Assembly (NCBI RefSeq): GCF_004799285.1
Contig: NZ_SSND01000001.1
Span: 806,001 to 870,000 of the forward strand
Source: Aliigemmobacter aestuarii
GTDB lineage: Bacteria > Pseudomonadota > Alphaproteobacteria > Rhodobacterales > Rhodobacteraceae
DNA length: 64,000 bases
Direction: 5' to 3'
Below the pieces are notes generated by a model. That model searched no databases. It saw nothing but the letters and a program-made list of their open reading frames with translations, and was not told where the DNA came from. A program made the position numbers and the translations under genes. Below are positions 3,072-52,292 of the stretch, one piece after another. Within the stretch, counting starts at the first letter, position 1. Each line of letters starts with the position of its first letter.

Positions 3072-3118
3072 CCGGGGGCTCTGCCCCCGGACCCCCGGGA
3101 TATTTCGAGACAGAAAAT
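3072..3118 (-). repeat. Dispersed hairpin repeat, copy E1 (left arm of MITE-like element A)
   Basis: Read on the minus strand this is ATTTTCTGTCTCGAAATATC followed by a G run and a perfect 8-bp hairpin (CCGGGGGC, loop TCT, at 3072-3090). It is the variant with ATTTTCTGTC in place of TTCAACCTGA. It pairs as an inverted repeat with the copy at 3243-3311. It lies just upstream of the CoA ligase start. Confidence 0.75.
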
Positions 3119-3272
3119 GGAAACGCCCCGCCGGACATGTGCCGACGAGGCGTCATTTCCTGTCACGGTCATCGGCGTCCCCGCCTGTACCGCATAGCCA
3201 CGATAACGCGCGGAGGTTAACGCAAGGTGAACTTCGGTGGGCATTTTCTGTCCTCAAATATCCTCGGGGGGT
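3091..3272. repeat. MITE-like element A with ~28-bp inverted termini
   Basis: Termini at 3091-3118 and 3243-3272 are inverted copies of each other with few mismatches (ACCCCCGGGATATTTC versus ACCCCCCGAGGATATTTG on the other strand, then ACAGAAAAT). The interior holds a 55-bp core (3167-3221) containing GGTCATCGGC, GCCTGTACCGCA and GGAGGTTAAC. The same three blocks, at nearly the same spacing, recur inside a second inverted-repeat pair at 52083-52258. No transposase is encoded. Whether it moves is unknown. Confidence 0.6.
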
Positions 3273-9081: not shown

Positions 9082-9150
9082 GGGGGGCTGTCTGCCCCCC
9101 TCTTTGGCTTCGCCAAATTCACCCCCCGAGGGTATTTCCGTCAGGTTGAA
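9082..9150 (-). repeat. Dispersed hairpin repeat, copy E3
   Basis: On the minus strand this is TTCAACCTGACGGAAATACC plus a G run, then hairpins TTTGGC-GAA-GCCAAA (9103-9117) and GGGGGGC-AGACA-GCCCCCC (9082-9100). The outer hairpin is 6 bp past the regulator stop codon. It forms a head-to-head pair with E4, 22 bp away. Confidence 0.8.
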
Positions 9151-9172
9151 GGACAATTCGATTCAAATGCGT

Positions 9173-9239
9173 TTCAACCTGATCGAAATACCCCGGGGGT
9201 AGCCTTTCGGCACGAAAGGCGCAGGGGGCAGCGCCCCCT
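9173..9239 (+). repeat. Dispersed hairpin repeat, copy E4
   Basis: TTCAACCTGATCGAAATACC plus a G run is followed by hairpins GCCTTTCG-GCA-CGAAAGGC (9202-9220) and AGGGGGC-AGC-GCCCCCT (9223-9239). The last hairpin reaches the dcp stop codon. With E3 it fills the gap between two convergent genes and could end transcripts from both sides. Confidence 0.8.
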
Positions 9240-22804: not shown

Positions 22805-23018
22805 GTCCGCACAAGGCGCGACCGGTGCAAGCGGGACAAGACGCGCGACGGGCGGAAATCCGACGGGCAAAATCGGCGACGGGCCAAACCGGCGACGGGT
22901 AAGATCAGCGACGGACCAAACCGGCGACGTCTCGAAAGACAGGCGCGCCCGCTCCATGGCGCCGCGGGCGCCCATCGTGCCGCCGTCACGCGCCGCCGTC
23001 ATGCGCCGCCGCGCGCCA
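22653..23018. other. 366-bp gap between yraN and gshB
   Basis: The gap holds the possible 53-residue frame (22643-22804) and a 16-bp tandem repeat (22846-22929). The flanks of the repeat are also low in complexity: purine-rich stretches to the left, GCC/GCG-rich triplets at 22955-23018. I see no hairpin terminator or clear promoter. Confidence 0.6.
22846..22929. repeat. 16-bp tandem repeat, about five units
   Basis: Units read cgacgggcaaaatcgg (22861), cgacgggccaaaccgg (22877), cgacgggtaagatcag (22893), cgacggaccaaaccgg (22909). A 15-bp unit (22846) precedes them and a partial unit (22925) follows. The period of 16 is not a multiple of three, which argues against coding. The unit is half-conserved: CGACGG is fixed and the rest varies. 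Confidence 0.8.
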
Positions 23019-32929: not shown

Positions 32930-32999
32930 TTCAACCTGGTCGAAATACCCTTGGGGGGTGAATTGGCCGGAAGGCCGAGAGGGGGGCGGACAGCCCCCC
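32930..32999 (+). repeat. Dispersed hairpin repeat, copy E5
   Basis: TTCAACCTGGTCGAAATACC plus a G run is followed by a TTGGCC-GGAA-GGCC hairpin and GGGGGGC-GGACA-GCCCCCC (32981-32999). The module order and spacing match E2 and E3. It points toward the VOC gene. Confidence 0.8.
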
Positions 33000-42735: not shown

Positions 42736-42745
42736 CCTCCACGAC

Positions 42746-42798
42746 TTGAACCTGACGAAAATACCCTCGGGGGGTCCGGGGGGCAGACAGCCCCCCGG
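42746..42798 (+). repeat. Dispersed hairpin repeat, copy E6
   Basis: TTGAACCTGACGAAAATACC plus a G run leads directly into a perfect 9-bp hairpin, CCGGGGGGC-AGACA-GCCCCCCGG (42776-42798). The small GGCC hairpin module of E2, E3 and E5 is absent. It sits between the permease and phosphorylase genes and may partly separate their transcripts. Confidence 0.8.
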
Positions 42799-51836: not shown

Positions 51837-52049
51837 ATGCCCAGACGATTTCGCCTGACCCGCCGCTTCCCGGTCGCCATGACGGAGGACGGATACCGGC
51901 GCCTGAAGAAATTCGCCGCCGAGGCGGGCCTGGACGAAGGCGAGGCACTGTCCTTCCTGTTCGAGAACTGGTCGAGCGTGATCCATCACGACAACCTCAC
52001 CCACCGGCTGCGACTGTTCAACAGCGAGCTCGAGGACAGGAAGCGCTGA
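51837..52049 (+). CDS. Small protein of unknown function in the beta-oxidation unit
   Basis: This 70-residue protein is preceded by GGAG at suitable spacing. It reads MPRRFRLTRRFPVAMTEDGY and continues RLKKFAAEAGLDEGEALSFLFENW. The start is basic, followed by an amphipathic helix, a turn and a second helix, which would fit a ribbon-helix-helix-like DNA-binding fold. It has no membrane segment. It lies between the acyl-CoA dehydrogenase and GST genes. I do not recognise it by name. Confidence 0.65.
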   Translation: MPRRFRLTRRFPVAMTEDGYRRLKKFAAEAGLDEGEALSFLFENWSSVIHHDNLTHRLRLFNSELEDRKR

Positions 52050-52082
52050 GCATGGCGGAGGCTGCGGACGCCTTCGGCGGGA

Positions 52083-52258
52083 GGGTATTTACGTCAGGTT
52101 GAAGACGTATCCACCCCGCCCCGCCTTACGCCTTGGCTATGCGACTTATCGGGACGGGGCTTCAACCTGAGCGGTCATCGGCTCCCCAGCCTGTACCGCA
52201 ACCGCGACAAGATCAGAGGAAGGTTAACAATTCCTTCTTCAACCTGATGAAAATACCC
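52083..52258. repeat. MITE-like element B with ~22-bp inverted termini
   Basis: GGGTATTTACGTCAGGTTGA (left, 52083-52104) and the reverse complement of 52237-52258 agree at 20 of 22 positions. The interior contains GGTCATCGGC, GCCTGTACCGCA and GAAGGTTAAC (52173-52228), the same blocks as in element A at nearly identical spacing. An extra CTTCAACCTGA copy lies at about 52160. The terminal sequence type differs from A, but the core is shared. Confidence 0.6.
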
Positions 52259-52292
52259 CGCGGGGGGTGCGGGGGGCGCGTAAGCCCCCCGC
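52237..52292 (+). repeat. Dispersed hairpin repeat, copy E8
   Basis: CTTCAACCTGATGAAAATAC plus a C/G run is followed by a perfect 9-bp hairpin GCGGGGGGC-GCGTAA-GCCCCCCGC (52269-52292). It lies 30 bp before the GST gene. Its inverted partner (52083-52104) lacks the hairpin. Confidence 0.75.

Follow-up and report, generated by a model that had tools for sequence, protein, structure and literature searches.

A predicted minus-strand small RNA with a two-part match to flanking and dispersed sequence arms in Aliigemmobacter aestuarii and related Alphaproteobacteria

The 64,000-nucleotide (nt) stretch of the Aliigemmobacter aestuarii genome analyzed here (the window; contig NZ_SSND01000001.1, positions 806,001 to 870,000) contains two short elements, A (3097-3264) and B (52082-52259), each of which appears to encode a small RNA whose guide letters recur in the flanks of the element and elsewhere in the genome. 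The original prediction, made from the sequence alone, had described them as resembling miniature inverted-repeat transposable elements (MITEs) with a shared core and different terminal repeats. The common core, at 3167-3192 and 52173-52198, and the dissimilar terminal heads were both borne out, as was the presence of GGTTAAC at equal spacing in the two elements. In both A and B, the left arm is followed by a GC-rich stem and then by a third head copy and the core, and a promoter-like stretch separates the core from the right arm. This third copy adjoins the core in each element (3154-3164 in A and 52160-52170 in B) and is read as the linker of the predicted RNA.

The core looks like the 5' hairpin of a predicted minus-strand RNA of ~90 nt. 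In 58 diverse sequences, 99% of the cells of this nine-pair hairpin are paired and changes on both sides occur at 4 pairs, whereas none of 500 shuffles reached either the pairing level or the both-side changes. Over a sample of 146 elements, on which the counts below are based, hairpin cells written for the minus strand include 35 G.U and 3 A.C, and this excess points to the minus strand as the hairpin strand. Compensatory changes are seen in some relatives (loci L205, L236, L239 and L249), and in L249 the stem is followed by a run of T. The predicted 5' end is the purine ahead of CGGUACAGGC, and the logo of the 146 elements has a purine at this position in 145 of them, a -10-like TAnnnT (first T in 47, A in 95 and last T in 107 of the 146) and, further upstream, letters resembling TTAA-N7-TTAA, the form given for CtrA sites in PMC6180460. 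The 146-element consensus fits a putative CtrA-like promoter near -35; transcription of the RNA is inferred.

In element A, the predicted RNA (3100-3193, minus strand) would start near 3193 and probably end in the left arm; its hairpin, which is the core of the original prediction, covers 3165-3193 with the loop GGGA at 3178-3181, followed by the linker GACAGGAAATG (3154-3164). The -10-like box TATCGT (3200-3205) lies 7 nt ahead of the hairpin CGG, and a CtrA-like box by the same motif definition (3217-3231; TTAA-N7-TGAA in plus-strand letters) precedes it, both on the minus strand. The covariance model matches 3147-3193 of this strand, and the part downstream of the core was also folded. In element B, the predicted RNA (52094-52199, minus strand; start near 52199, 3' end likewise putative) is matched by the model at 52153-52199 and comprises the covarying hairpin (52171-52199, loop GGGG at 52184-52187) and the linker TCAGGTTGAAG (52160-52170); a TTAA half-site is present at 52224-52227 of the minus strand, the second TTAA of the full CtrA box being degenerate. 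A search of the window and 11 further loci produced no Rfam match above the gathering cut-offs, and a permissive scan of element A gave 3 matches, all far under the cut-off. The original prediction had named a match of the core to a known family at many fixed places as evidence against itself; an RNA family at fixed places is indeed what the core resembles, but it corresponds to no known Rfam family.

The arms have the form 5'-(11 nt)-N3-AAATA-(3-4 nt)-3', in which the 11 nt match the RNA linker and the last 3-4 nt match the hairpin loop. In plus-strand letters, the left arm of A (3097-3119) is GGGA-TATTT-CGA-GACAGAAAATG, so that the minus strand reads the linker match, N3, AAATA and the loop match, and its right arm (3242-3264) is CATTTTCTGTC-CTC-AAATA-TCCT; the corresponding arms of B are AGGG-TATTT-ACG-TCAGGTTGAAG (52082-52104) and CTTCAACCTGA-TGA-AAATA-CCCC (52237-52259). 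In 119 of the 146 elements, the right flank contains the 10 nt of the linker again with at least 8 positions matching, and 72 of the 80 copies that match at 9 or 10 positions continue with four unconstrained bases and then AA[AG]TA; foreign linkers, used as a control, score 9/10 in 22 of 1841 trials. With the motif required and 7/10 allowed, a right arm is present in 123 and a left arm in 106 of the 146 elements, and 95, A and B among them, have inverted arms at both ends. Cells between linker and arm in 123 elements comprise 1056 Watson-Crick pairs, 144 G.U, 9 A.C and 21 others. An obligatory mismatch at linker position -8 was considered, given how common it is (C>T accounts for 88 of the differences in the 123 elements), and was dismissed as a rule because element B and three plasmids lack it.

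The second part of the match concerns the loop, the first three letters of which equal the arm tail in 110 of 118 cases (mean 37 and maximum 53 in 10,000 shuffles). This equality holds within each stem class, 55/60 for T-A (shuffle mean 15, maximum 30) and 51/54 for G-C (shuffle mean 42, maximum 47), on both sides of the element (115 of 123 right arms, 102 of 106 left ones), and, among 85 elements from 43 genomes, in 127 of their 141 arms. Of the 11 arms that go with rare loops (TGTC, CGCC, CCGC, CACC and others), 10 match; such rare, separate changes are a better argument than the shuffles, which ignore descent. The G-rich loop had also suggested a CsrA decoy or a sequence pairing with the Shine-Dalgarno motif; both were dropped, since the loop follows the arm tail.

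The search of the genome and its relatives for the core, called for in the original prediction, identified, at up to 3 mismatches, only two sites in the 3.76-Mb genome (none in the reversed control). The core was found in 43 of 101 genomes, the own one included (control 0), in named genomes (at least 118 stretches) and in some plasmids. The covariance model detected the RNA in 45 of the 61 genomes of the family, again with the own genome included, and in 3 of 40 genomes outside it, one of which (G072, locus L248) was unconvincing on inspection and was discarded because it does not resemble the family. When 385 genomes were sampled from the class and a stricter cut was applied, 12 contained the RNA, including 7 that do not belong to the family. 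Three genomes of less than 2 Mb from other alphaproteobacterial families (G073, G206 and G291) contain three RNA copies each.

A domain search of the neighbors of A and B yielded metabolic genes and one unmatched frame of 70 amino acids. When the neighbor genes in the window were used as probes against the 146 elements, 16 elements were found to have as neighbor a relative of the CoA-ligase-like gene that lies to the left of A (place A), 15 of them with an acyl-CoA dehydrogenase gene on the other side, and 34 to adjoin a relative, with at least 60% identity, of the acyl-CoA dehydrogenase-like or the glutathione S-transferase-like gene next to B (place B). Altogether, 50 of the 146 elements occupy two fixed places across genera; a third group of 8 loci has several other neighbors in common, including a putative ABC-transporter ATPase (a name read from the translation). 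Orientation to the neighboring genes differs, as originally noted: the element as a whole is flipped at 8 of the 16 place-A loci, whereas all 34 place-B loci share one orientation. The left gene is 46-69% identical to that of the window in the flipped loci versus 72-100% in the unflipped ones, so perhaps there were few inversion events. Inversion between the arms was considered as a process and set aside, flips being confined to those 8 place-A loci with none in the 34 place-B loci. The 70-amino-acid frame without a Pfam match (51837-52049) has element B on one side and the acyl-CoA dehydrogenase-like gene on the other.

Arms without a core are scattered over the genome, which contains 91 type II and 21 type I heads when up to 2 mismatches are allowed (reversed control 0), with one RNA for each arm type; with one mismatch allowed, there are 71 type II copies and none in 100 relatives. 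Inverted heads, which the original prediction described in A and B, are not the rule: 75 of the 91 type II arms stand alone, and the other 16 make up 8 inverted pairs. Within the window, the dispersed type II arms include one inverted pair (9131-9192, with arms at 9131-9151 and 9172-9192) and two single plus-strand arms, at 32930-32950 and at 42745-42766, the latter ~10 nt past the TGA that closes the upstream open frame. Inverted pairs of both types have a similar AT-rich spacer (around TTGATTCAA), as seen at 9131-9192 and at loci L038, L040, L044 and L045. A different repeat in the window, made of tandem 16-bp units starting with CGACGG (22861-22924), overlaps open frames.

Among the 101 genomes, a pattern covering two common guides detects exact arms in 10, with 56 in G020, 41 in G039, 25 in G041, 24 in G060, 18 in G053, 13 in G037 and fewer in G002 (10), G007 (3), G011 (3) and G006 (2); where further intergenic sites were counted at up to 2 mismatches, several genomes have from 14 to ~120. 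The arms of G020 and most of those listed for G039 fit, in both linker and tail, an RNA of the same genome. For G041 and G060, the arms were noticed first and the model then found in each an RNA with a fitting guide and loop; conversely, the unusual guide of G012 predicted arms, of which 14 were found there (2 of them belonging to its own element) and a single one in the remaining 100 genomes. Comparison of 20 sites each of G020, G041 and G060 with orthologous gaps identified pairs in which both genomes have an arm, each with its own genome's letters, either with different guides (L295/L271 and L309/L287) or with the same guide (L258/L290 and L268/L285); this speaks for change in place, across guides in just two cases. 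Guide address and sites appear to change together between species. By rough gene calls, 74 scored sites from four genomes lie in 31 convergent, 38 co-directional and 5 divergent gaps.

Several plasmids of Rhizobiaceae and Mesorhizobium have the RNA downstream of repA with the core in a constant orientation. An exact arm lies 404-941 bp from the RNA in plasmids L228, L230 and L172 and 65 bp away in L229; the same constant hairpin is found past the arm in all four, and the constant part past the arm, GGGGGCAGACAGCCCCC, is common to the plasmids and the window. The cargo between RNA and arm differs in two of L228, L230 and L172. Across L228, L172, L230 and L229, this stretch varies from parDE to Fic, to no annotated gene on that strand and to the mere 65 bp, respectively. 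No arm was found in the whole plasmid L231, in the stretches L170, L233 and L234, or at the Thiothrix locus L168, and no partner gene was recognized in the four whole plasmids that were read.

Taken together, these patterns lead us to lean, with modest confidence, toward the view that A and B are paralogous resident small-RNA genes whose two-part guide directs a ribonucleoprotein to the arms. Each RNA would open with the conserved ~28-nt hairpin, the 4-nt loop of which, together with the following linker of 11-13 nt, would constitute the guide; loop and linker would base-pair with one arm strand, 5'-linker'-N3-AAATA-loop'-3', with AAATA and the hairpin as the constant parts. The arms adjoin the RNA gene, in many cases on either side of it, and several genomes would offer further intergenic arms as sites, which the ribonucleoprotein probably reaches in trans and more likely as DNA than as transcripts. 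A ribonucleoprotein directed by the RNA to those sites is proposed as the reason why the guide, the flanking arms and the dispersed arms vary together.

A number of observations weigh against this reading. Neither arm is nearby in 12 of the 146 elements, and a single position often separates the linker from its arms, the gene having C where the arm has T or G. The promoter and terminator letters are uneven: element B holds just half of a CtrA box, and the T-rich window present in 64 of the 146 elements is weak evidence of a terminator, scored without a control. No partner protein was found, with no search made for the IS110, TnpB/IscB and reverse transcriptase families; clustering of neighbors, aimed at such a partner, recovered synteny instead, the recurring neighbors not having been searched by family. 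Dispersed arms are not universal, the common-guide pattern being limited to those 10 of 101 genomes, and in the 806 kb of 121 loci only 4 own-guide arms lie outside elements (permuted guides give 0.28 per 506 kb), which implies that arm abundance varies. In G053, G037 and G006, the exact arms are unlike those belonging to the RNAs that were detected in these genomes, no RNA was found to go with the arms of G007, and G039 holds a further arm family without an RNA (e.g., CTTCTTCTTTG-N3-AAATACTC). Finally, the elements are only a sample of those that exist, and descent is ignored by the shuffle statistics.

Hfq-type trans-acting small RNAs are ~90 nt long and have their own promoter, a terminator-like stem and a short pairing segment. 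The predicted RNA shares this length, promoter-like letters, stem and segment, and it might pair with arms in the 3' untranslated regions of messenger RNAs, with a chaperone such as Hfq and the arms as regulatory tags. We consider such a regulator unlikely. The G.U-rich pairing suits an RNA-RNA contact, as does the topology of loop plus linker with an A-rich crossing strand, and many sampled arms sit shortly past stop codons; yet the sites are dispersed in both orientations and vary with the RNA, and the gene calls do not give the pairing sense consistently. The linker-side gene reads into the arm in the pairing sense at 44 of the 74 sites, the gene on the other side reads in the non-pairing sense at 56, and 25 of the 38 co-directional sites give the non-pairing sense only. 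Because arms occur in both transcription senses, DNA is favored over messenger RNA as the target. Improbable, in our judgment, is a structure acting in cis, with linker and left arm as a terminator stem, loop and tail as a pseudoknot and the other arms as copies of the terminator module: A and B do fold with the linker paired to the left arm, and the loop match holds for 102 of the 106 elements with a left arm, but the right arm, upstream of the promoter-like letters, matches equally well, and L249 and plasmids L172, L228 and L230 have a matching arm on the far side only.

The MITE-like interpretation, in which the heads are terminal repeats and the RNA is a passenger or cofactor, would account for the inverted arms at both ends of 95 elements, the dispersed copies, the differing small-plasmid cargo (parDE, Fic) and the two orientations at place A. 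It is nevertheless quite improbable, considering that many elements stay put across genera (16 with the neighbors of A and 34 with those of B), that 75 of the 91 type II arms are single, that heads vary in step with the RNA linker and loop, and that a few orthologous places hold arms with each genome's letters. What endures of the original prediction is the separability of core and termini and its alternative of an RNA/DNA-binding site. Very improbable is a minus strand that acts as folded single-stranded DNA, as a site of recombination, transposition or priming: hairpin pairing with G.T wobble is possible in DNA and several plasmid copies are near annotated rep or par genes, but the promoter-like letters at a fixed distance, the purine at the start and the T-run after the stem in L249 point elsewhere, and the own genome has no Y1 transposase match. 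A primase or G-site priming hairpin, suggested by the plasmid copies downstream of repA, was dropped, since the promoter-like letters, the strand-specific G.U pairs and the chromosomal copies next to metabolic genes agree better with an RNA.

The proposed RNA-guided system shares features with several known ones. The omega RNAs of TnpB/IscB and the guides of TldR combine a conserved scaffold with a short variable guide and a constant motif rich in T on the 5' side of the match. The predicted RNA resembles them in all three respects and differs in that no nuclease gene was recognized beside A or B, the ~11-nt guide would lie between the scaffold and a terminator-like stem, and there is an additional loop match. 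The closest analogue appears to be the pairing of repetitive extragenic palindromic (REP) sequences with the REP-associated tyrosine transposase (RAYT), for which PMC2817692 describes a resident locus between two inverted repeats, cognate dispersed repeats, co-evolution of locus and repeats, and repeat abundance that tracks the presence of the locus. Here, the type I, type II and G012 arms accompany a matching RNA, whereas those of G053, G037, G006 and G007 lack one and few dispersed arms lie near other elements; furthermore, the resident locus resembles an RNA gene rather than a Y1 transposase, the match is by direct base complementarity, and most counted arms are single. RAYT was rejected as the partner, the Y1 transposase domain (IS200/IS605-like; PF01797) having no match in the own genome and a match in 6 of 61 family genomes. 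The IS110 bridge RNA, as portrayed in PMC11208160, is likewise a structured non-coding RNA with short segments that pair with DNA, including that of the element itself; it differs in using two internal loops rather than one hairpin loop plus a linker, and the locus here is resident with many copies of one site type and no recombinase gene, such as the DEDD recombinase of IS110, recognized beside A or B, the presence of IS110 in the genome not having been searched for.

REP-containing small RNAs, similarly with repeats at gene ends, are suggested for Bradyrhizobium in PMC5082802; the Br-REP consensus given there resembles neither the hairpin nor the arms, and the action of such RNAs in trans is a speculation published there, a looser forerunner of the regulation of messenger RNAs considered above. 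Transcription of REP elements in S. meliloti is reported in PMC2873474. Intergenic 134 of P. denitrificans, an 84-nt RNA in PMC5107571, is not equated with the predicted RNA because its reported homology is to Actinobacteria and it could not be placed on a locus. No description of the RNA family or of its arm and hairpin letters was found in the literature searched, which covered few subscription papers.

A bolder version of the favored reading, which we put forward tentatively as possible rather than probable, is that a host-resident programmable guide RNA leads a putative protein to dozens of DNA sites, with guide, arms and sites rewritten together, as an RNA-guided counterpart of RAYT/REP of which some plasmids have their own RNA and arm. 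Guide and sites can be predicted from the sequence. If this reading is right, a guide-RNA system with no CRISPR or transposon gene recognized beside it is present in a common bacterial order, and its specificity would be written in ~15 letters that can be read from each genome; this would also offer a testable explanation for some genus-specific intergenic repeats that are uniform within genomes and different between them.
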